DNA from: Stenotrophomonas oahuensis
GTDB taxonomy: Bacteria > Pseudomonadota > Gammaproteobacteria > Xanthomonadales > Xanthomonadaceae
Direction: 5' to 3'
DNA: 64,000 nucleotides
Assembly (NCBI RefSeq): GCF_031834595.1
Contig: NZ_CP115541.1
Location: forward strand, 1,833,001-1,897,000
The notes under the pieces are model-generated. The model searched no databases, was not told where the DNA came from, and saw nothing but the letters and a program-made list of their open reading frames with translations. Both the position numbers and the translations under genes were made by a program. The number at the start of each line of letters is the position of its first letter. Position 1 is the first letter of the stretch. Positions 27,334-39,911 of the stretch are shown here, in pieces.

Positions 27334-28260
27334 ATGCAGCTCAAGGCTCTCCGCTACTTTCTTACCGTTGCCGGCACCGGCAGCTTCCTCGCCGCCGCCC
27401 GGCAATACAGTGTTCCAGCCTCGTCGGTGTCGCGTTTCATCGCCGCGCTGGAGAAGGAACTGGGCAAGCAGCTGCTCTACCGCAGCACCCGCGCGGTGCG
27501 TCTGACCGAGGCTGGCGAGCTGTTCCATCATCAGGTGCGCGATGCGCTGGAGATACTGGACCAGGCGGCCGAGCAGGTTGAGGGCAAGGATGCCGGCATC
27601 AGCGGGCTGATCCGCATCAACGCGCCCGAATCGCTGGGCCGCCGGCATATCGCACCGATCATTGCCGAACTGCAGGAGCTGCACCCGGCGCTGGTCGTCG
27701 AACTCACCCTGACCGACCTCTACATCGACCCGGTGCAGGACGGCGTGGACATCACCATCCGCATTGGCCCGTTGGTGGACTCGGGGTTGATCGGCAAAGT
27801 GATATCGCCGAACCACCACCAGGTGGTGGCAAGTCCGGCCTACCTCGCGGTACATGGCACGCCTGAAACGCCGGAGGAGCTGCTGCAGCACCGCTGTCTG
27901 GTCTACAAGGGGCAGCTGGGCATGCAGCGCTGGTACGTCAATACCGGCGACGGGCAACCACTGAAGGTGCTCAACGTCACCGGCCCGCTACGCAGCAACA
28001 ATGCGGAAGCGTTGTTGGCGGCGGCTGTGGCCGGGCGTGGCATCGTGCTGTTCCCGGACTGGATGTTCGACAACGGAACGTTCGCGCGCGGCGACATGGT
28101 GAAGCTGCTGCCGCAGTGGCAGTTCTCCACCCAGCCGGATCAGGTGTACCTGCAGATGCTGTCGCCCGAGAACAAGATGCGCTCGCGCAAGGTACAGACC
28201 GTGTCGGCGTTCATTCTGGAAGCGATCGGGTCGCCGCCTTACTGGTGCCTGGACACGTGA
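27334..28260 (+). CDS. LysR-family regulator
   Basis: 308 residues from the ATG at 27334. HTH in LKALRYFLTVAGTGSFLAAA and VPASSVSRFIAALEKELGKQ, then the effector domain with LIRINAPESLGRRHIAPII and DITIRIGPLVDSGLIGKVIS. It groups with regulators that sit opposite an alkene reductase and probably activates it in response to electrophiles. Confidence 0.9.
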   Translation: MQLKALRYFLTVAGTGSFLAAARQYSVPASSVSRFIAALEKELGKQLLYRSTRAVRLTEAGELFHHQVRDALEILDQAAEQVEGKDAGISGLIRINAPESLGRRHIAPIIAELQELHPALVVELTLTDLYIDPVQDGVDITIRIGPLVDSGLIGKVISPNHHQVVASPAYLAVHGTPETPEELLQHRCLVYKGQLGMQRWYVNTGDGQPLKVLNVTGPLRSNNAEALLAAAVAGRGIVLFPDWMFDNGTFARGDMVKLLPQWQFSTQPDQVYLQMLSPENKMRSRKVQTVSAFILEAIGSPPYWCLDT

Positions 28261-28269
28261 GCTGTGGGG

Positions 28270-28311
28270 GAAAAAAGCGGTCCCGGCACCATTCATCCCC
28301 GCCGGGACCGC
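28270..28311 (-). terminator. Rho-independent terminator of the candidate sRNA
   Basis: Minus strand GCGGTCCCGGC, 13-nt loop, GCCGGGACCGC, then TTTTTT: 11-bp perfect stem and six Ts. It also ends 10 bp past the convergent LysR gene. Confidence 0.9.
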
Positions 28312-28390
28312 CACAGCACGTCCGTGTTACTGCTCTGGCGGTTGCGGGGGAGCGGCGCTCCTCGTCAAAGCGCCAACACAACCAGCCAGT
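28270..28390 (-). ncRNA. Candidate 121-nt small RNA downstream of the Roc-like operon
   Basis: A complete transcription unit is visible on the minus strand: activator motif (28424-28446), -10-like TATTCT (28397-28402), start expected near 28390, and a strong terminator ending at 28270. Inside are a hairpin GGCGCT-loop-AGCGCC whose loop carries GAGGAG, a small CACG-GA-CGTG hairpin, and the terminator stem with a 13-nt loop containing GGGGATG. Three of four GGA triplets are in loops, as in RsmA/CsrA-binding RNAs, but GGA is expected by chance at this GC content. No plausible protein fits: the 71-codon frame here starts upstream of the -10. Confidence 0.55.
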
Positions 28391-28396
28391 CCGCAC

Positions 28397-28446
28397 AGAA
28401 TAGAAATGCCGTAACCAGGTCGCCATCAGGCAATCCTTAAAGCCGG
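28397..28446 (-). promoter_or_regulatory. Roc-like regulon promoter 1 (sRNA)
   Basis: Minus strand CCGGCTTTAAGGATTGCC then TGATG (28424-28446), 21 nt, then TATTCT. It starts 7 bp after the regulator's stop codon. The same architecture stands before the kinase operon (36428-36477) and the autotransporter (39862-39911). The -35 region is poor, so an activator is probably needed. Confidence 0.65.
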
Positions 28447-28453
28447 GTCGCTG

Positions 28454-29095
28454 CTACCGGAAAAGATCCGACTCGAGGCAGTAGCTGATCAGGTCCTGGT
28501 CGGACTTGGTACCCAGCTTGCGCATGGCGTTGATCTTCTGGGTACTCACGGTCTTGCTGCTGCGACTGAGCTGCTTGGCAATATCATTGACGGTCAGCCC
28601 CTGTGCGAACAGGCGAATTACCTCGAACTCACGCGGGGAAAGCGCACTGGCAGAGGGTGCCTCGCCAACATCGGGCAGAGGCTGTTCAACCGGCAACTCC
28701 GGTGAGCGGTATACGCGCTTGGCCTGAACCGCCTGCACTGCAACGATCAACTCCTTCAGGTCGCCACTCTTGCGCACGACCCCCGCGGCACCGGCACGAT
28801 ACATCTCGACGATGATCGACGGGTTGGAGAGCATGGTCAGCACCAGCACCTGGGTATCCGGAAAGTGCCGGCGCAGGTACGAGATCAGCTTGATGCCGTC
28901 GCCCAATGATTCGTCACCGGGCATGTTGTAGTCGGTGATGATGATCGCCGGGGAAAGCGTGCGTGCCAGCACCACCAGGGATGCCGGGTTCTGGGCCTGG
29001 CCGACAACGGTCAGGCCCGGGTCGCGGTCAATCACATCGCGAATGCCGGCGAGCACAATCGGGTGATCATCGGCAATGACGATCGGGGTCTTCAT
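28454..29095 (-). CDS. NarL/RcsB-type response regulator of the Roc-like cluster
   Basis: 213 residues from MKTPIVIADDHP (start 29095; an in-frame ATG 15 bp upstream is possible). Receiver with DD near residue 10, acceptor aspartate in IIITDYNMPGDES and lysine in VVRKSGD. C-terminal LuxR-type HTH ALSPREFEVIRLFAQGLTVN and LSRSSKTVSTQKINAMRKLG, closest in style to RcsB, EvgA, BvgA and Pseudomonas RocA. It is last in the operon, 27 bp after the HPt-bearing kinase, which should phosphorylate it. It is the best candidate for binding the shared motif in front of its own operon, the autotransporter and the sRNA. Confidence 0.9.
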   Translation of the reverse strand: MKTPIVIADDHPIVLAGIRDVIDRDPGLTVVGQAQNPASLVVLARTLSPAIIITDYNMPGDESLGDGIKLISYLRRHFPDTQVLVLTMLSNPSIIVEMYRAGAAGVVRKSGDLKELIVAVQAVQAKRVYRSPELPVEQPLPDVGEAPSASALSPREFEVIRLFAQGLTVNDIAKQLSRSSKTVSTQKINAMRKLGTKSDQDLISYCLESDLFR

Positions 29096-29122
29096 GGGGA
29101 GGCTCCACACCGGCAGGAAAGG

Positions 29123-32100
29123 TCAGGAAAGCGCAAGCTTGTCATCGGGTGGATGCTGTTCCAACTGGGACAGTGCGCGTTCCAGCTGATGGTGGAAGGT
29201 TGCCGTGGCGAAAACCACCTGGTCAACCGGTGCACCCGCATCGATGGCAACCTCGATGTCGGTCACCTGGTCGACCAGTCGCTGTGCAGACACGGTAACC
29301 AGCGCACCGCCTATGCGGTGCAGCATCTGGCGCATCTGCACGGTGTCCGCCTCCAGCGTTGCCCTCTCCAGCGCGTGCAGATCGTCCCGCATGGTGGTCA
29401 GAAACAGTGAGCGCAGGTGCGCCGGCACCGCCAACGTACATACGGCATTGTCACTGCCGGGTGACGAGTCCAATGCAACGCTGGCGGCCAAAGGGCTCAG
29501 CTGAAGGTAGAGCGCGTGCAGTGAGATTGGCTTGACCAGGCAGCTGTTCATGCCGGCAACGCGGCAGCGCTCGCGCTCCTCCGGTGCCGCGTTGGCCGTC
29601 GCGCCAATGATCGGAACCTGCGCACCCCGGCCGCGCAACGCGCGCGCCAATGCGTAACCATCCATATGGGGCATGTTGACGTCGGTCAGCACCGCATCAA
29701 AGCGACGTTGGTCCCAGTAACCCAGCGCTTCGTCGCCATCGCCGGCGACCACCGCATGGCATCCCAGCTGCTCCAGCTGTTCGCGCAGTATGGTCTGGTT
29801 GATGGGATTGTCCTCGGCGATCAACACATGCAGTCCCAGTGGACGCAGCGCCGGCTCGGGCAGCACCGCGTTCGGCAACTTGCCGTGCCCACTGGCCTGC
29901 AGCAGCGCGTCGACCATGGCATCCAGACGATGCATTCCGACTATCCAGCGTCCCTGGTTGAACTCGGTGCGGTCCCCGCCGTCGGTCACGGCCACCACAT
30001 GCGGCCCGGCCCACTCTGGAACGGGTTCGTCAAGCACGATATCCAGCAGCGGCGTGTGGGTGTCGAAACTCTCAGCATTGTCGACGTTGAACAGCACTGC
30101 ATGGGCCCCGCGTTGACGGAGGCGGCCGCACAGACTTTCGGCCAGCTCGCGGGCGGATGAGCGCACATAAAGCGTCTGCGGCGAGTCAAAACGAGGGTGC
30201 GGGTCCGCAGCGTCCCTGCTGTGCATCAGCGGCAGCGCGAAACTGAAGCTGCTGCCCAGGCCGCTCTCACTCACCACACGCAGCTGGCCGGCCATCAGCC
30301 CCACCAGATGCGCGCTGATGGCAAGGCCCAGGCCGGTGCCGCGCAGCGCGTCCGTACCTGGGTTGGCTTGATAGAAGGCTTCAAACAGGCGCTCGTGGTG
30401 TTCCTGGGCAATGCCGATGCCGGTATCAGCTACCTGCCAGTGCAGTCTGGGCGGTTCGCCTGGTTGCTGGAGTGTGGTCAGCCGGACGACGATACGGCCA
30501 GCATCGGTGAACTTGACCGCATTGCTGAGCAGGTTGTTCAGCACCTGGCGGATGCGCGCGGCGTCGCCGACCACCTTGATGTCGGTGCTGGTCTCAATGC
30601 AGGCATACAACTGCAGGTGCTTTCGGGTAGCGGCTGCCGCGTACGAACGCAGCACATCCTCGGTCAGGGTGGCGGGGTTGAATACCACCGGTTCCAGAGT
30701 CAATTGACCGGCTTCGGCCTTGGAGACGTCCAGAATGTCGCTGATCAACTCCATCAGCGTGGCCGAGGAGCGCTGGATGGTGCTCAGATACTCCTGTTGC
30801 CGTGGTACCAGCGGCGTCAGTCCCAGCAGCTCGAGAGTGCCCAGCACACCGTAGAGCGGTGTGCGGATCTCATGGCTGATGGTGGCCAGGAACTGGCTCT
30901 TAGCCCGGTTGGCCTGGTCGGCGGCCACGCGGGCCTGCTGCAGCACCTGCTCCGCTTCATGCTGCGCGGTGAGGTCCACGAACAGGCACAGCACCACCGG
31001 CTCGCCGCGATAGCGGGCCGGGGTGGCCGTCACCAGCAGGTGGCGACCGCCCGGGGTGGTGAAGGTCTGCCCATCCGGGTGGTCTGTACTCAGGCTGGTC
31101 TGGGCGGCGGCACGCCACTCGCTGTGCCAGCCCGGTGCCTCGTGGCTGTTGCCCAGCCAGGTTCGGGCCGGTGCATTGTCCAGCATCACCTCGCCATCCC
31201 GTCGGCGCAGCAGGCACAGGCCAATCGGTGCGTTGTCCAGCACGGTCCTGCTGAATGCTTCGCTTTCCAACAGGCGCTCGTGGTTGGCGCGCAGGGGTTG
31301 CAGCACCGAGCGTCGGTAGCTGCGCAGCAGCAAGGTGCCGCCCCCTGCCAGCAACAGCGCCAGTACCACGCTGCCGATCAGTGGGCCGCGTGGATGGCTG
31401 AGAATGCGCCCCCAGCGCACGTGATAGACCACCTGCCAGCCGGCGTCGGTTCGCATGCGGTACACCAGCCCGCGCAGCGTGTACTCGCGGCCGGCCTGAC
31501 GGGTGGCGGTCACTGCAGGGCCGTACACCTGCATGCCATCGGGTGCGATGATCGACAGCTGGTCATAGATGGACTCACCCAGTACCTGTCGATGATCGTC
31601 CAGTCGGGAGACGTCCAGCAGGCAGGCAACTGCAGGTGCATTGGCGCTGCCTTCTTCGCCGCCCCACGCCGCCGCGTCCTGGGGGGCACGCGCTATCGAT
31701 ATCAGCCGCGGATTGCCCGGACCCAGTTCGCGGCCGGTCCAGCGCACGTCACCGCGCTGCGCGGATGCGCTGGGAGCCAGCTGCTTGATGTACCCCAATG
31801 TCGCTTGCAGGATGGGCAGCGGCGGGCGGGCCGAGCCGATGTCATCGGCGGTGGAAGGCACCAGAATGCCTGCGGTACCGGCCGTGTTGATCAGCAGGCA
31901 GCGGGGCGAAGGGAAACGTGATTCCGCCCAGAACGCACTGTAGAAGCCGGTAAATCGCCGTCCCAGCAGGGTGGCGCTGTCATGCAGCGCCGGGTCGACG
32001 CCCAACTGGGCGAACGGGAGATAGGTGACGGGCCCTTTGACCGGTGGTCCACCCGGTTGTAGCGGATGGTTGGGGTCCTGCACGCGCCAGCCACGCAGGA

Positions 32101-32299
32101 AACGCTCGTGCTCCTGCAGTGCGCCACCCAGGCGGCGGAAGTGGAACTCAATCTTGTCCTGCTCGCTGTGCAGCAGCTGGGTGGCAGTCGACAGCAGCAG
32201 GCCCGCCTGCAGCGTTGCCAGTGCAATGACGCCGATCAGCAGCGCATGTACACGCAGCGAACGGCGGGCCAGCTGACGGAACGGTGCAGCTTCAGGCAT
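29123..32299 (-). CDS. Hybrid sensor kinase with HPt (sensor 1)
   Basis: 1058 residues; start 32299 chosen for AAGGGG before it (an in-frame start at 32440 overlaps the EAL gene). TM1 ~18-40, extracytoplasmic region ~41-335 without a recognisable solute-binding fold, TM2 ~340-360, PAS-like segment (TVLDNAPIGLCLLRRRDG), His[22 protein letters not shown], HATPase (NLLSNAVKFTDAG, DTGIGI, GTGLGLAIS), a degenerate receiver-like stretch, a true receiver (VLIAEDNPIN, VLTDVNMPHMDG, LVKPIS) and a C-terminal HPt with MLHRIGGAL. This is the BvgS/EvgS/RocS type H-D-H phosphorelay. It is the only HPt in the cluster, so it probably serves sensor 2 as well. Confidence 0.92.
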   Translation of the reverse strand: MPEAAPFRQLARRSLRVHALLIGVIALATLQAGLLLSTATQLLHSEQDKIEFHFRRLGGALQEHERFLRGWRVQDPNHPLQPGGPPVKGPVTYLPFAQLGVDPALHDSATLLGRRFTGFYSAFWAESRFPSPRCLLINTAGTAGILVPSTADDIGSARPPLPILQATLGYIKQLAPSASAQRGDVRWTGRELGPGNPRLISIARAPQDAAAWGGEEGSANAPAVACLLDVSRLDDHRQVLGESIYDQLSIIAPDGMQVYGPAVTATRQAGREYTLRGLVYRMRTDAGWQVVYHVRWGRILSHPRGPLIGSVVLALLLAGGGTLLLRSYRRSVLQPLRANHERLLESEAFSRTVLDNAPIGLCLLRRRDGEVMLDNAPARTWLGNSHEAPGWHSEWRAAAQTSLSTDHPDGQTFTTPGGRHLLVTATPARYRGEPVVLCLFVDLTAQHEAEQVLQQARVAADQANRAKSQFLATISHEIRTPLYGVLGTLELLGLTPLVPRQQEYLSTIQRSSATLMELISDILDVSKAEAGQLTLEPVVFNPATLTEDVLRSYAAAATRKHLQLYACIETSTDIKVVGDAARIRQVLNNLLSNAVKFTDAGRIVVRLTTLQQPGEPPRLHWQVADTGIGIAQEHHERLFEAFYQANPGTDALRGTGLGLAISAHLVGLMAGQLRVVSESGLGSSFSFALPLMHSRDAADPHPRFDSPQTLYVRSSARELAESLCGRLRQRGAHAVLFNVDNAESFDTHTPLLDIVLDEPVPEWAGPHVVAVTDGGDRTEFNQGRWIVGMHRLDAMVDALLQASGHGKLPNAVLPEPALRPLGLHVLIAEDNPINQTILREQLEQLGCHAVVAGDGDEALGYWDQRRFDAVLTDVNMPHMDGYALARALRGRGAQVPIIGATANAAPEERERCRVAGMNSCLVKPISLHALYLQLSPLAASVALDSSPGSDNAVCTLAVPAHLRSLFLTTMRDDLHALERATLEADTVQMRQMLHRIGGALVTVSAQRLVDQVTDIEVAIDAGAPVDQVVFATATFHHQLERALSQLEQHPPDDKLALS

Positions 32300-32378
32300 G
32301 ACGTCCCCTTGAAGGGCGGCGGCAGTACGTTGGGGGAAGGCGTGGCGCGCTCCACTGACATCCTCGGCCATTGCGCCG

Positions 32379-33590
32379 TCAGTGGCAAGGCGGGGTGGGG
32401 TGGACACTGCCCTCGCGGCCCAGCAGCGCGGCAAACGCATCGGCAGGTACCGCCCGTGAAATCAGATAGCCCTGCACCTGGGTGCAGCCGAGCTTGCGCA
32501 GCGTGGCCAGCTCTTCGTCCGTCTCCACACCCTCAGCCACGATGTTCAGCCCCAGCCGGGTACCCAGCGCGATCACCGTGGCCAGTGCGCCGTGCAGTGC
32601 AGGGTCCCGCGCGCAGCCGGTGACGAGTGCGCGGTCGATCTTGACCTCGGTAAACGGGGTGCTCACCAGGTTGTGCACCGAGCTGAGCCCCTGACCAAAA
32701 TCGTCCTGGGCCAGGCCAAAGCCTTTCATGCGCAGGCGGCACGCTCCCGCGTAGTAGTCGCTTACATGCGCGGTGGTGCTGCCCTCCATCAGCTCGAAAC
32801 AGAGGTCGCCCGGACGGCCATGATGGGACAGGGTCAGTTCCAGCAACTCATCGGGAAGGCTGGAGCGCTCGAGCAGGTGCGGTGGCAGATTGATCGAGAC
32901 CGGGATGCGGAAGCCCTGCTCGCGCCAACGCGCCTGAGCCTTCACGCTTTCCACCAGGATGTGTCGAAGCAGCATCGGCTCCAGTCCCTGCTCGGCAATC
33001 AACGGCAGGAATACCCCCGCCGGCAGCGTGCCCCGGGTGGGATGGCACCAGCGTACCAACGCTTCTGCCGCCACCACCTGGCCGGAATCCAGTGACTTCT
33101 TGGGCTGGAACCACGCGGTGATCTCGCCCCCGGCGATGGCATCACGCAGTTGCGCACGACTGGGCGTCAACGGTGCTGCGTCAGCCGGCATCGCAGGGAC
33201 GGTCAACGGCGCAACGCGTAGTTGGGCTACCAGCGCATCCATGTCCGCCTGTGTGACCGGCTTTGGCAGGCTGCCCAGCACGGTCAGGCCCAGCGACTCG
33301 GCCATCAGCCGCGCCGAGGTCAGCATGCGCGGCGGGGCAGAGCTCACAAGTGACAGCTTCGGGTGGTGCTCCTTGGCCGCCAGTGCCTGGATGAACTGGA
33401 TGCCGTCCACACCCGGCATCATCAGGTCGGTAATCACCAGGTCATAGTCAAACAGATCGCACATCGCCACCGCATTGGCTGCATCACCTGATGTATGAGT
33501 GACGACACCCGGCAGCGCGTGCAGCAGGTTGGCCAGATAGCCACGCTGGAACGGCTGGTCCTCCAGTATCAGTACACGCAGCGGGGTCAT
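32379..33590 (-). CDS. REC-EAL c-di-GMP phosphodiesterase, RocR-like
   Basis: 403 residues. N-terminal receiver: VLILEDQPFQRG, acceptor D in VITDLMMPGVDG, K in SLPKPVT. C-terminal EAL domain has all catalytic positions: AEALVRW, N in SINLPPHL, E in FELMEG, DD in QDDFGQG, K in VKIDRAL, E in VAEGVET and Q in QGYLIS. It should hydrolyse c-di-GMP when phosphorylated. Same domain order and size as Pseudomonas RocR. It overlaps the upstream kinase by 4 bp (ATGA) and is followed 79 bp later by sensor 1, so it receives phosphate from the same relay. Confidence 0.92.
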   Translation of the reverse strand: MTPLRVLILEDQPFQRGYLANLLHALPGVVTHTSGDAANAVAMCDLFDYDLVITDLMMPGVDGIQFIQALAAKEHHPKLSLVSSAPPRMLTSARLMAESLGLTVLGSLPKPVTQADMDALVAQLRVAPLTVPAMPADAAPLTPSRAQLRDAIAGGEITAWFQPKKSLDSGQVVAAEALVRWCHPTRGTLPAGVFLPLIAEQGLEPMLLRHILVESVKAQARWREQGFRIPVSINLPPHLLERSSLPDELLELTLSHHGRPGDLCFELMEGSTTAHVSDYYAGACRLRMKGFGLAQDDFGQGLSSVHNLVSTPFTEVKIDRALVTGCARDPALHGALATVIALGTRLGLNIVAEGVETDEELATLRKLGCTQVQGYLISRAVPADAFAALLGREGSVHPTPPCH

Positions 33591-36421
33591 GTCTGTACTC
33601 CTGTGGTCAGTTCCGTGAGGGCGCTGCGCAAGACGCAGAGATTGATCGGCTTCACCAGATAGCTGTCCATGCCGGCGGCCAGGCAGCGTTCGCGGTCCTC
33701 CGGCGTGGCATTGGCGCTGGCCCCGATCACGGGCACGGCAGCACCCTGTAAGCGCAGCTGACGGACCAGTGAAAGCCCATCCAGCTGCGGCATGTTGATG
33801 TCGGTCAGGACCACGTCGAAGCCTTCCGGTGTGAACTGCGCCAGAGCTTCGCGGCCGTCGACTGCGGTTACCACCGTGCAGCCCAGCATCTCCAGCTGTT
33901 CTTTCAGGATGACCCGGTTGATCGGGTTGTCCTCGGCGACCAGTACCCGCAACCCCAGTGCCGAGTCACGCGCTGACGGCAATGGCGACGGCGAGGCCAG
34001 CATGCCCTGCTGCAGCAGGGCCACTGCCTCGGCGATGGCGCTGATGCTGTGGAGCGTAACAATCAGGCTGTTGGGATGCGTCGAGTCCAGCGCAGCCAGC
34101 TCGCCGCCCGTGGCCAGCGCGGTGACGCGAGGTCCTGGCCACGCAAGCGGAACACGGTCATGCGGATCGCTGTCGAGCAGGATCGCGTGGGCGGCATCCA
34201 ACGGCGGCATGTCCTCGTTGTAGCGGTAGGCGGTCGCTCCCCATCGGCGCAGCCACTGGCAGGCACTGTCGGCCAACTCGGTATGGGCCGTGCGGACATA
34301 CACCGGCGGGTGCGAGCGCAACTTCGGCGCATTCGTGTCGTGCTCCTGGCCATCTTCGTCCACACCTGCCGGGATGATGGCGGTGAAGCTGCTGCCCAGT
34401 CCCGGCTCGCTGACCAGGCGCAGCTCACCGTTCATCAGGCGAACCAGATGGTCGCTGATGGAAAGCCCGAGCCCGGTACCGTCGGAGCGCAGCGGATTGG
34501 CAACCTGCATGAACGGCTCGAAAAGGCGCGGCTGTTCGGCTGCCGGGATGCCAATTCCGGTATCGGTTACCTGCCAGCTGATCGTGGCCGAACCGGCCTC
34601 GCGCGCCACCAGGTTGACCCGCAGCACGATGCGGCCGGCATCGGTGAACTTGATTGCATTGCTCAGCAGGTTGCCCAGCACCTGACGGATGCGATCGGCA
34701 TCGCCGCTTACCTGAGCCGGCAGGCGTGGGTCGGTGCAGACCAGAATCTGCAACTGCTTGCGTGCGGCGGCGGCGGCATAGCCCAGCACCACGCTCTCAC
34801 CCAACGCCATGGGCGAGAAGGTCCTTACCGCCAGGGTGAGCTGTCCCGATTCGATCTTGGAAACGTCCAATACATCGCTGATCAACTGCAGCAGCACCGA
34901 GGACGACTGCTGGATGGTCTTCAAGTACTGTGCCTGGCGTGCATCCAGTGGGGTCCTGCCCAGCAGCTCCAACGTGCCCAGCACGCCATAAAGCGGCGTG
35001 CGGATCTCGTGGCTCATGGTTGCCACGAATGCGCTCTTGGCCTGGTTGGCTTCTTCCGCGGCCTGTTTGGCGGCCGACAATGCCTCCTGGATCTGGCGAT
35101 GGCGGCTGACGTCGCTGAACACACACAGCAGTACGTCGTCGCCGTGGTAGCGCGTGGCGGCGTGCAGCACCTGCAGCAGGTGCCCGGCCTGCGTCTTGAA
35201 CTCGATGCTCTGCACGCCACGCGCCGATGCAGTGGATAGAGCCACCGCGCGTCGCCAGTCACCATTCCAGTCGCCGTGAAGGGTGTCCGCCCCCAGCCAG
35301 TCCCTGGCCAGCTGGTTCTCGACCATCACGTTGCCATCGCGCAGCCGCAACACACAGATGCCTACCGGTGCCATCTCGATGACCGTGCTGCCGAAATCGA
35401 AGCTCTCCAGTAACTGACGATGTTGTTGCTGGGCTGGCTGGATCAGTTGCCGGTCCAGCCGGCGGACCAGCACATACAGCGTCGCCATCGCCGCTGCGCA
35501 ACACAGCAGCGACAGCAGAAAGGGAAGCATCAGGTCGCGCAGCACCGTGCGTAATGGAAGGTGGCAGACCAGATGCCAGTTGTCCTGGCCGATGCTCTTC
35601 ACCAGGGCCAGGCCCTGCGGAAACCCGAAGTCCCAGATGAAGGAAAACGCATCATTGTGTTGCGCATGCAGCCAGCCGCCGGGCAGGTCGATATCGTCGC
35701 CGCTGAACAGTGCCGGTCGACCTTGCGGGTCGGCCAGCAGCACGCCGACCATGCCGGTGCCATCGGTTATCTGGGTCAACGCCTGCGGGTCCAGCACCAG
35801 CACCAGCCAACGCAGGGGATGCGGCCCTTCCTCGGCAGCACGGTACAGGTACACGGTGCGCTGCGGGCCGCTGGTGACGAGCCAGTACACCTGCACGTCG
35901 GGGCCGGTGGATGCTGCGTGCGCGCGCAGCAGGGAAGCGGTGAGTTCCGGCGGCGGCGGGGTGGTGAGCGGATGCTCGCCGTGCAGCCAGCGGCGCGGCA
36001 CATACGGGTCGTCGCTGACCAGCACCAGGCGAGCGCCCAGTTCGCTCAACGTGCGCTCGGCGCGTGCTGACAGCAGCAGGCTCAGCTCGCGACCGTCGCG
36101 CCCGGCTCCCAACGGCAGCTGGCGCACGCCGACATCGTCAGCGCTGTGCGCGTCGGTACGCAGCGACGCCGATTCCACTACCGAGTCGGTGAGGTAGTTC
36201 AACAGCGCCTCGCGGCGGTCGAAATAGATCTGGGCCCGATACGCGGTGGCGTTCATGTCCCGGCGGTACTGCGACACGTTGCCGCTCAGTTGCGCCAGCA
36301 GATAGAACCCGGCTGCGCCCAGCAGGCAAAGCAACACGCACACCGACAGCCAGCGCAGCAGCGCAGTGGCAGCAGCGATGGGGGCATCAATGCGCGATCG
36401 TTGGGGCAGAATGCGGTACAT
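33587..36421 (-). CDS. Hybrid sensor kinase lacking HPt (sensor 2)
   Basis: 944 residues, first gene of the operon. TM1 ~20-45, extracytoplasmic ~46-300, TM2 ~302-322, PAS-like segment ([18 protein letters not shown]), His[22 protein letters not shown], HATPase ([29 protein letters not shown]), weak middle receiver-like stretch, true receiver ([28 protein letters not shown]) and then a short tail. Unlike sensor 1 there is no HPt. The catalytic core is clearly paralogous to sensor 1 while the sensor regions differ. The start codon has no Shine-Dalgarno and would be the transcription start of the promoter at 36428, so the mRNA may be leaderless. Confidence 0.92.
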
Positions 36422-36427
36422 GGGCTC

Positions 36428-36477
36428 ATGCTAGGAATCGCCCGCAGCGGCACCCATCAGCCAATCCTTAAAGCCAG
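36428..36477 (-). promoter_or_regulatory. Roc-like regulon promoter 2 (sensor operon)
   Basis: Minus strand CTGGCTTTAAGGATTGGC then TGATG (36455-36477), 21 nt, TAGCAT (36428-36433). Six bases after the -10 comes the ATG of the first kinase. Suggests autoregulation of the operon. Confidence 0.65.
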
Positions 36478-36582
36478 CGGATCGGCCCTTTCGTGCCGTT
36501 ATTGGTTCAGGCGGGTGAAAGCAAAAAGGCGCATGCACCGGCATCCATCCAGGATGCCCGGTGCACGCGCCCCCGGAGACGG

Positions 36583-39500
36583 TTACCAGCGGTAGGAAAT
36601 ACCCATCTGCGCGCCGATGTCGCGGAAGCCCATGCCGCCGCTCTGACGGTTCAGCTCACCCCAGCCACGCCAGCTTCCACCCAGGTTCACCTGCACGCCT
36701 GCCTTGGCTTCGTAGATGTCCTGCGGCAGCTGGCGACGCAGGGCTTCACCGTCCATACGGATGACCGCATCGTTGCCGCCATTCCACCAGTTCAGTGCCA
36801 CATACGGCTGTACCGGGTGCTGGGCGGCGTCTGCCGCGCGGGTGTACAGACGCACCCCGACGCGGGTGGTGGTGGTACCGCTGTTGTCGTGCTCCACTGC
36901 CGTGCTGTTTTGTTCCACCAGTTGATCGGCGTCGTAACGGCTGTGGATCACCTGCACCTGCGGCTCCAGATACACGCTGCGGTGTTCATTGCGGGCCAGC
37001 GGCAGCGTATAGCCTGCTTCGGCCGAGCCGGTCCAGCTGTGCGAACGATAGCGTTCCTCGGCCAGGCCTTCGCCCTGCACACGGTTGCGGAAGCGGCCGT
37101 ACTGCACCCAGCCGTCGACATATGCACCGCCGTCCATCTGTACACTCTGCAACCAGGTGGCATACAGGCCCGCGGTGCTGCCATCGACCACACCGCGGGA
37201 GGTGTAACCAGTCACGCTGGAACGCGTGTCGTTGCTGGCGTGGCCGACACCCAGCATCGCACCGACCTGCAGTTCACCGCCTTCATTGGCGGCAAAGCGG
37301 CGACTCACGCCAACCAGCGCGCTATTGACGTGGCTGTCCACGTGCAGCTGGCGGCTGGCATTATGGCCCTCCGGTTGGTTGCTGCGCACCCGTGCCCAGG
37401 TCACCATCCGGTCATCGCCGTTGGCCTGCGCGGCGGGATCGCCCGCACGGTCGTACAGGCTGTGGCGGAACATGCCCTGCGCGGCGCTCTGATTGGCCAG
37501 ATAGGAGCCCGATTCCGGCCGCTCTACTTCAGGACGGATCGGGTCTACCGGAGCGGTGGGGTCAACCGGGTCAACGGGGAGTACCGGATCGACGGGGTCC
37601 ACCGGGTCCACTGGATCCACCGGGTCGACGGGGTCAACCGGATCCACCGGATCGACAGGATCCACCGGATCGACATACACAGAGCGCAGATACCAGTTGC
37701 CGTCATCCGGGGTGGTGATGCCACCCTTGTACAGGAAGTAATCGTAGGCACCGGCCACCGCACGACCCTGCAGGCTGAACGCCGCGTCGGACTGCCCACC
37801 GACGGTGATCAGACGAATGCCCTCAACGGTGTCCGCACCCGCACCGCCGGCGTTGTTCACGCTGACGCTGGCGGTGCCGCTGCTGTTGCCTTCGATGACC
37901 AGTTGGTCACCCGGCGAGGCGTCATCGCCCAGAGCCCGGTTGAATACCCACTGCCCGCCCTGGCCGACGTAGTCGCCGGCCACCGTGACGGTCTTGAACG
38001 TGCCTGCGGTCGGGGCATCGAAGGTGATGTTGCCGGCATGGGTCAGCGTGCCAACACTGGAGTCGCCACGCACAGCCCACTGGCTGGTGCCGTCTACGCT
38101 CAGCTGTGCCACGGCATTGCCCGTGCTGTTCACCAGCGCGCCATGCAGCAGGCTGCCGTTGTTCAGTGCCACGTTCACTTGTGCGGTCGCGCTGTCCACG
38201 CTGATGTCGCCCAGCAGCGTGCTGCCATTCGTGGCGGAGACGTCCACCTGGCTGGTGGCGATGCTGCTGCCGTCGGTGAATACGGTATCGCTGACCCGCA
38301 CCGCTCGGCCGGTACCGTTGCCGGCAGTCACGGTGCTGTTGTCCAGCGTCACGGCGTGATTGCTGCCCTGCAGCCACAGCGCCGGGCCACTGGCCGACTC
38401 GAAGTTGCTGTTGGTGAAGGAAGCGTTGTTCCAGTAGGGCCCGAACGCGGTCAGGTAGGAACGGTAGGCACCGCTGTTGTCGCCGGTCATGCGGATGTCC
38501 AGCGCATCGGCCTCGGACAGCACCGCCGTGTTCATCTGTACCAGACCGAACGTACTCGTACCCGCACCGCGAATGGTCAGGTTGTCCAGCGCCGCGCTGA
38601 CTGCCGAGCCACCGAGGAACACCGCACCGCCGCCGTTTCCGGCCACGGTCAGGGTGGTGCCGCTGGCATCCATGCGGCTGTAGGTGCCGCCGGTTGAGCC
38701 GGTAACGCGCAGGCCGTATACGGAGTCGCCGTGGGTGGTGATCGCACCGCCCACCACCGTGGCTTCACCCGAATACACCTCCACACCGTGGCCGTTGGTG
38801 TTGGTCCACGTATCCACGGTGCTGTCGGTCAGTTGCAGTCGCGACTCATCGCTGGACAGCCAGAAGCCGGCGAAGCCGTCGCGCACGTCGAAGGAGGCAC
38901 TGCGCGCGCTGACCGAGCCCCAGTTGTTGATGTTGACGCCGTAGCCCCCGACGGTGCTGAACGAGCCGCCGTCGATGTCCGCAGTGGCATAAGTGCTGGA
39001 CGTGGTGTTGCCCATCACCCGCAGGCTGCCGCCCACCGAGTTGGCGGTGACGTTCTGCAGCAGCAGGCTGCTGTTGCTGCCGCTTACGTCGAACCAGCCA
39101 CCGTCCACCTGGGTGTCATACACCTCGGCACGGCTGCCGGTGCCGTCCACTGCGAAGCCAGCCAGCGTGCCACCCGGCGCGAAGTTGATCTGGCTGTCGC
39201 GGACGGTCAGCAGGCCCGCATTGCTGGCGCGCAGGCGACCACTCTTGCCGGCGCTTACCTGAACGCCGTCCAGGTGGATGGCACTGCCTGCACCAGTGGC
39301 GACGAGCGAGCCACCGATGTTGCTCAGGGTGATGTCACCGCCGGCGTAGTTGATCACACCGCCAGCAGCGGCCTGCATGGCGCTGCTGTTGGTGGACGTG
39401 CCGCCAGGGATGATGCTGACGTTGGTGGCGTCGATCACGCTGCCAACGCCATTGGCGTAAAGCGTATTGGCATTGGCCGCGATGACGGCGTCGCGCAGGG

Positions 39501-39813
39501 TGACCTGGCCGCCCGAAGCGGCATACACACCGCCGCCCGTACCCAGCGCCTCGATGTGGCTGCCGTCAATGGTGATGGTGCTGCCGGTGCCACTGGCCGT
39601 AACGGCATTGCTGCTGGTGGAGACACTCACGGTATCGTCGCTACCCAATGTCTTGGTGGTGCCGTCGGTCACGGAAACCGGGGTGACATAGTCAGCGGCA
39701 GCGGCAGGCAGCGTCGCCCACAGCGCACTGGCCAGCAGGGTAGGCATCAAGGGGACGCAGGCCAGGCGATTGCCGGCCGACCCGCTGCGACGGCGGTTGA
39801 GAATAGCGTTCAT
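36583..39813 (-). CDS. Autotransporter adhesin with (VDP)n linker
   Basis: 1076 residues from 39813, where AGGAG precedes the ATG and a long signal peptide begins (basic head, then [19 protein letters not shown]). An in-frame ATG at 39891 lies upstream of the predicted promoter -10 and is rejected. Residues ~40-720 are a beta-helix passenger made of short imperfect repeats rich in G, S, T, N and V. Then comes a VDP-repeat linker of about 45 residues (nt 37540-37677) and a C-terminal autotransporter barrel that starts [12 protein letters not shown] and ends MGISYRW with the terminal aromatic. Probably a surface adhesin or biofilm factor. Its promoter shares the Roc-like motif. Confidence 0.9.
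37540..37677 (-). repeat. VDP codon repeat in autotransporter
   Basis: A run of about a dozen 9-bp units, each coding V-D-P, with slight base drift, then [20 protein letters not shown]. Units are multiples of three, so slippage would change linker length without a frameshift. Confidence 0.9.
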
Positions 39814-39861
39814 TCGAAGGGATCTCCTGTAGCTGCGCGCGGTTACACGCTGAATGACGTC

Positions 39862-39911
39862 AGCGTAGAAAGCGCGCCCGCGCGAGGACATCAGGCGATC
39901 CCTAATACCGG
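39862..39911 (-). promoter_or_regulatory. Roc-like regulon promoter 3 (autotransporter)
   Basis: Minus strand CCGGTATTAGGGATCGCC then TGATG (39889-39911), 21 nt, TACGCT (39862-39867). The expected transcription start is near 39855, giving a ~42-nt leader with AGGAG before the ATG at 39813. Confidence 0.65.

Follow-up and report, generated by a model that had tools for sequence, protein, structure and literature searches.

The rprA promoter of Escherichia coli is activated by RcsB. For Pseudomonas aeruginosa PA14, passages of one report describe that overproduction of RcsB induces cupD, pvrR, pvrS, rcsC and rcsB, and that the cupD1 promoter no longer works once GAA in its box is replaced by TTC (PMC3842833). 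I analysed a 64,000-nucleotide (nt) window of the Stenotrophomonas oahuensis genome (contig NZ_CP115541.1, positions 1,833,001 to 1,897,000; coordinates below are those of the window), which carries on its minus strand, in this order, genes for an autotransporter, a PvrS-like kinase, a PvrR-like receiver-EAL protein, an RcsC-like hybrid kinase with an Hpt domain and an RcsB-like regulator. The last four adjoin on one strand, and by gene and domain content the locus is a PvrS-PvrR-RcsC-RcsB-type phosphorelay operon accompanied by an autotransporter. A sequence-only reading of this DNA, made without database searches, had called the locus Roc-like; with PvrR as the best model for its EAL protein, this is better refined to the PvrSR-RcsCB type. 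No Cup fimbrial cluster is adjacent in the window, where the autotransporter is found instead.

Three sites in this locus would quite probably be bound by the RcsB-like regulator, with class II activation of a leaderless operon and of the adhesin gene, and with the third site a relic.

Three boxes with a common promoter architecture

The sequence GGYWTTARGGATYGSCTGATG occurs three times on the minus strand, each time with 0 mismatches (Table 1), and allowing up to 3 mismatches adds no further match in the window; 100 shuffles gave a mean of 0.00. Across all 4.68 Mb of the genome, the core 17-mer, with as many as 2 mismatches allowed, is likewise confined to exactly these three places; a looser 44-letter pattern allowing up to 3 mismatches finds 3 further places (2, 3 and 3 mismatches). 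At all three window sites the box is separated by 21 nt from a −10-like hexamer, preceded by TTTC (before TATTCT), TTCC (before TAGCAT) or TTTC (before TACGCT). The sequence-only reading had described this motif, spacing and hexamer, and all of these hold, as do the positions at which its sites start; the ends it gave are 2 nt too long, and the TTYC-like bases that it had pointed out ahead of the hexamer are present in the window but not kept across genera.

It had also described the −35 positions as poor. A pattern scan of 27900-28600, around the third site and the sole stretch so scanned, agrees for this one of the three sites, listing no sigma-70 promoter with a −35 element. A box about 21 nt before the −10 hexamer without a good −35 is the layout of an RcsB class II promoter, and a single activator-type architecture at the three sites is supported.

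The geometry of the box can be read from a divergent locus (L072), where it takes the form TTAGGA-N4-TCCTAA; in this symmetric version the palindrome is centred between core positions 8 and 9. With the start of the −10 hexamer taken as −12, the centre of the imperfect palindrome falls at about −42.5, where class II activators sit, overlapping the −35 element. The E. coli rprA promoter shows a comparable arrangement, TCTGATC-N21-TACTAT-N6 followed by the annotated first base of the RNA.

A predicted leaderless start of the phosphorelay operon

In the window, exactly 6 nt separate the hexamer from the start codon of the first kinase, which by the rprA geometry puts the A of this ATG at +1, with no Shine-Dalgarno sequence and no in-frame start upstream. 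Because of this placement, it is strongly predicted that the operon mRNA begins at its AUG, as a conserved, leaderless and self-activated message. The adhesin promoters, by contrast, have predicted leaders, of about 42 nt in the window and about 160 nt in the S. maltophilia group.

The layout box-N21/22-TANNNT-N5/6-ATG was found by script in 86 of 93 loci, 29 of 31 from Stenotrophomonas (window included) and 57 of 62 from elsewhere, with N6 in 84 of the 86. This count leaves aside L074-L089 and L091, Stenotrophomonas loci that overlap the set L044-L071. Among the loci missed by the script, L072 and L090 keep both TANNNT and N6, their boxes being variants, and L073 has a weak box and N7. When near-misses read by eye are included, 92 of the 93 loci share the layout, which spans Stenotrophomonas, Pseudomonas, Achromobacter (L149) and Pseudoxanthomonas (L090, by eye). 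In 70 of the 86 loci the hexamer contains TAG or TAA as an in-frame stop codon upstream of the ATG, which makes a protein start further upstream impossible there. Among 55 distinct Pseudomonas and Achromobacter sequences, coding periodicity sets in directly after the ATG (mean differences of 0.152, 0.136 and 0.425 at codon positions 1 to 3).

An alternative is that the regulator activates the operon from a start further upstream, so that its mRNA has a leader and the N6-ATG spacing is merely a fixed arrangement. Leaderless genes are uncommon in Pseudomonas, which speaks for such a leader. I nevertheless consider it improbable, since the gap is fixed while the spacer sequences diverge, since the annotated start of rprA lies at the same N6, and since AGGA, GGAG or GAGG is absent from the 4-18 nt before the ATG in all 57 loci outside Stenotrophomonas. 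Within that genus one of these motifs occurs in 5 of 29 loci, equal in number to the loci whose hexamer is TAGGAT.

Among the open papers listed, judged largely by title, none was found on a leaderless start of this operon, and the main-text passages of a PA14 start-site paper contain no mention of leaderless messages or of pvrS (PMC3460626). In one locus (L099) the box-N21-hexamer-N6-ATG kinase start occurs twice, at positions 651 and 2251, 1.6 kb apart, which suggests a partial duplication.

Co-occurrence of the boxes and the operon

The EAL gene is found at E ≤1e-50 in 31 of 91 Stenotrophomonas genomes. A strict pattern of the window type matches 10 places in 6 of the 91, all with N21 though 20-22 was allowed, and a strict pattern of the S. 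maltophilia type matches 36 places in 22. One or other of the two is present in 28 of the 31 operon-bearing genomes and in 0 of the 60 operon-free ones, and all 46 places are at the locus (Fisher p 2e-20, with kinship not corrected for and the patterns drawn from these same loci). The genomes missed are G088, whose boxes carry extra mismatches, and G055 and G048, which have a variant form. Outside the genus, a Pseudomonas-type pattern at up to 2 mismatches is present in 10 of 12 genomes, at 28 places, 22 of them on the contig of the locus and 6 elsewhere.

In 28 of 30 genus loci of about 20 kb each, a box lies directly before the first kinase, so that the motif recurs ahead of the orthologous operon, as the sequence-only reading would predict. 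A second box follows the regulator and precedes the autotransporter in 26 of the 30, with N21 every time. The spacer sequences diverge (21 distinct among 28 operon sites, 23 distinct among 26 adhesin sites) while the distance stays constant. The two kinds of box also differ at core position 11, which is C in 24 of 26 adhesin boxes and G in 24 of 28 operon boxes.

The likely activator

The sequence-only reading had named the adjacent NarL/RcsB-type regulator as the obvious activator, and this proposal gains from the comparison. The regulator's closest solved structures are named RcsB (PDB 5vxn, 146.8 bits); the enterobacterial RcsB equivalog model is its best, at 159.2 bits under a cut-off of 235, so the protein is called RcsB-like only. 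Together, the rprA geometry and the genetics of RcsB in PA14 (PMC3842833, as described in part of that report) make the regulator a well-supported candidate for the activator of the boxes, and the co-occurrence of boxes and operon points the same way.

NarL-type regulators can share similar half-sites, and in one relative (L047) the neighbourhood of the operon includes a further NarL-type gene. The boxes might then be bound by a global factor or by a second protein of NarL type, the locus regulator having other targets. This is very improbable given that the strict patterns in the genus match solely in operon-bearing genomes and solely at the locus, and given the effect of RcsB described for PA14 (PMC3842833).

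A number of observations weigh against the proposed reading as a whole, activator and leaderless start included. The scoring matrix gives the rprA box only 6.8 bits, with the best score on the opposite strand, and for this reason the register was set by eye on TCTGAT. None of three other RcsB-linked promoters of E. coli, those of osmC, ftsA and bdm, matches cleanly: osmC has a weak box-like stretch (2.3 bits) that fits N21 with TAGTCT, ftsQ, upstream of ftsA, has a stretch of 7.1 bits with N21 but TGGAAT, and no box was recognised upstream of bdm, so that rprA alone is relied on. The hexamer is CANNNT in L128 and L148 (both N6) and in L151 (N7), and in L098 no box can be recognised. Of the 57 loci outside Stenotrophomonas, 8 have an in-frame start in the 60 nt ahead of the ATG, and within that genus codon periodicity after the ATG is weak (0.30, 0.39 and 0.48). 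The spacing of "exactly 21 nt" in the sequence-only reading is true of the window sites and does not extend to the genus, where 19 of 29 script-fitted loci have an operon spacer of 22 nt and 10 have one of 21 nt. Among adhesin boxes, that of Achromobacter (L149) has no TANNNT at N20-22, and those ahead of a YadA-type adhesin in two relatives have none at N20-23. Finally, all compared loci are related by descent and hence are not independent.

A probable vacated adhesin promoter at the third site

In 25 of 26 relatives, the distance from the regulator stop codon to the adhesin box is 19 to 95 nt, most commonly 52 nt; in the 26th (L071) the regulator match ends early. The third window box lies at the corresponding place, its core beginning 13 nt past the regulator stop codon, and it carries C at core position 11, as does the autotransporter box; the operon box carries G. 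The window autotransporter shares 55-66% identity with the autotransporters found past the regulator in the 26 relatives (best full-length identity 64%), which identifies it, by sequence comparison, as the relatives' post-regulator gene now lying upstream of the operon. Since the relatives' autotransporter promoter sits where the third box is, and the gene itself is now found elsewhere, this box most likely represents an adhesin promoter that has lost its gene. The order box-adhesin, box-operon, box could have arisen if the region was duplicated in tandem and one copy each of operon and adhesin was then lost.

The sequence-only reading had seen here a candidate sRNA belonging to the regulon. 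A real, species-specific sRNA switched on by the RcsB-type regulator, an analogue of E. coli RprA, is possible but doubtful. The site has an intact box with N21 and TATTCT, and by reading and folding the predicted transcript has its own promoter and an intrinsic terminator: about 120 nt downstream it ends in a strong hairpin (28277-28311) and T6, the T-run being on this strand only. The pattern scan listed no terminator, as it allows loops of 3-8 and the loop here is longer. The fold of the whole transcript is also modestly more stable than expected (z −2.74), and the PA14 island holding the homologous system is described, in a passage of PMC3460626, as having 10 sRNAs and 36 antisense RNAs. 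Without the terminator, on the other hand, the 5' part reaches only z −1.75, and the pairing computed with five local mRNA stretches does not stand out from that of shuffles (41 of 200 shuffles as low in the best case). No DNA match to the transcript was found in 90 other genomes of the genus, and no match in Rfam. With position and box type being those of the relatives' adhesin promoter, a vestige is more likely than an sRNA, and the RNA is not supported as a conserved member of the regulon.

Genes of the locus

The features of the locus are collected in Table 1. The PvrS-like label rests on gene order and domains, as the best NCBIfam model for this kinase is RcsC, below its cut-off. For the EAL protein the best model, PvrR, scores 526.7 bits against a cut-off of 580. 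Its catalytic residues E176, N234, E266, D296, D297 and K317 are invariant in an alignment of seven sequences, and for this reason its phosphodiesterase is probably active. Homology of relatives to the RcsC-like open reading frame (ORF) mostly begins at residues 36-55; the ORF is probably overlong at its 5' end (window 32300-32440), and its true start may lie some 35-50 codons inside.

Table 1. Features of the S. oahuensis locus, in order along the minus strand (aa, amino acids).
Feature	Positions	Strand	Basis
Autotransporter-promoter box, RcsB-type, adhesin type (C at core position 11)	39889..39909	-	motif search and box typing
Autotransporter -10 hexamer TACGCT; predicted +1 at 39855; leader 42 nt	39862..39867	-	sequence reading
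Autotransporter (pertactin-like, AC_1, beta-barrel), 1076 aa; ATG 39813 after CAGGAG	36583..39813	-	
Operon box GGCTTTAAGGATTGGCTGATG, RcsB-type, operon type (G at core position 11)	36455..36475	-	motif search and relatives
Operon -10 hexamer TAGCAT; ATG starts 6 nt on, at predicted +1	36428..36433	-	sequence reading
PvrS-like hybrid histidine kinase (HisKA, HATPase, receiver), 944 aa; predicted leaderless start 36421	33587..36421	-	
PvrR-like response regulator with EAL domain, 403 aa	32379..33590	-	Pfam; NCBIfam
RcsC-like hybrid kinase, receiver and Hpt	29123..32440	-	domain searches, NCBIfam
RcsB-like NarL/LuxR-type response regulator, 213 aa; proposed activator	28454..29095	-	domain, structure and NCBIfam matches
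Third RcsB-type box, adhesin type; core begins 13 nt past regulator stop codon	28424..28444	-	motif search and relatives
Third-site -10 hexamer TATTCT; predicted +1 at 28390	28397..28402	-	sequence reading
Short predicted transcript, ~120 nt; sRNA candidate or vestige	28271..28390	-	sequence reading, folding

Adhesins under the box

In 26 Stenotrophomonas loci the adhesin box is followed by an autotransporter gene. In G026 (L047; Pfam match) its place is taken by a YadA-type trimeric adhesin, encoded as a convergent gene downstream of the regulator, and likewise in G056 (L048), there by the same place and first residues; ahead of this adhesin an RcsB-type box (L160, L161) begins 121 nt before the ATG. 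Outside the genus, a fimbrial subunit gene follows the regulator in all 3 loci tested (L092, L096, L149). At upstream sites of outside loci, the gene that follows encodes a PapD-type chaperone in L113 and L129, and L117 has a fimbrial gene there; no Pfam match was found for the two remaining upstream ORFs tested (L092, L105). In Pseudoxanthomonas (L090), two more boxes lie upstream of the operon in the opposite direction (minus strand, 6972 and 7475), with TANNNT at N21 in one and at N22 in the other. The shared regulon of the sequence-only reading is supported for its phosphorelay, its cyclic di-GMP (c-di-GMP) phosphodiesterase and its adhesin, and not for its sRNA.

In the S. maltophilia group (L049-L071), the distance from the box to the likely ATG of the autotransporter is 208-211 nt in 23 of 23 loci. 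The 5' leader, of about 160 nt from promoter to ATG, is conserved and structured, with three main hairpins and some covariation; its alifold energy is −40.9, where column shuffles average −20.1 and none of 100 is as low. A leader of this type is absent from the window autotransporter. A known riboswitch was considered for the relatives' leader and set aside, as no Rfam family matched the single leader searched (L049).

A proposed regulatory circuit

I propose that the RcsB-like regulator would bind as a dimer to the imperfect palindrome centred near −42.5, where it would overlap the missing −35 element and recruit RNA polymerase to TANNNT, a class II mechanism as at E. coli rprA. It would thereby switch on its own phosphorelay operon, encoding the PvrS-like kinase, the PvrR-like EAL phosphodiesterase, the RcsC-like kinase with Hpt and the regulator itself, and would also switch on the autotransporter adhesin. 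The operon mRNA would start with its AUG, in a spacing kept across genera, and the third site, downstream of the regulator, would be what remains of the adhesin promoter after the adhesin gene had taken its present place upstream of the operon.

There is a good chance that this extends further, and that the PvrS-RcsB operon of four or more genera forms a dedicated leaderless message, its AUG fixed at the +1 of an RcsB class II promoter, with positive feedback acting through leaderless translation and with the adhesin interchangeable (autotransporter, fimbriae and probably the trimeric YadA type). Across the loci, adhesin genes of different types lie under one predicted switch. The arrangement box-N21-TANNNT offers a predictive rule for finding RcsB-type regulons by sequence outside the enterobacteria. 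It also predicts a deeply conserved leaderless mRNA for a phosphorelay of c-di-GMP and adhesion, which would be unusual in building translation initiation into an autoregulatory circuit. A note of caution follows for annotation, in that the probable relic should not be catalogued as an sRNA.

Comparison with known systems

The open literature yielded no paper linking Stenotrophomonas, PvrR and an autotransporter. The closest described system is PvrSR-RcsCB with cupD of P. aeruginosa PA14, which, from the portions of two reports that describe it, shares four protein types, namely two sensors, an EAL regulator and an RcsB regulator (PMC2696094, PMC3842833). As in PA14, RcsB would activate an adhesin operon and its own phosphorelay genes through an RcsB-type box, predicted here and with an essential GAA there. 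Unlike in PA14, where the target is a divergent set of Cup fimbriae, the target here is an autotransporter on the same strand. Compared by description only, the relevant passages of the PA14 papers place the boxes by their distance to ORFs, and give no fixed spacing to a −10 hexamer and no leaderless pvrS.

The RocS1-RocA1-RocR system of P. aeruginosa, in the same portions of these reports, shares an EAL regulator that works against a NarL-type activator of surface fimbriae (PMC2696094, PMC3842833). The likeness to Roc is one of protein description, and it differs in that the EAL protein here best matches the PvrR model. With E. coli rprA the locus shares the box, the 21 nt, TANNNT, the 6 nt, the +1 and the family of the activator; the rprA promoter controls an sRNA, whereas the conserved targets here are a phosphorelay operon and an adhesin. 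Like the leaderless mRNAs of bacteria, the operon message has an AUG at its predicted 5' end and no Shine-Dalgarno sequence; it differs in being predicted for a signalling operon that regulates itself, with the arrangement conserved in four or more genera.

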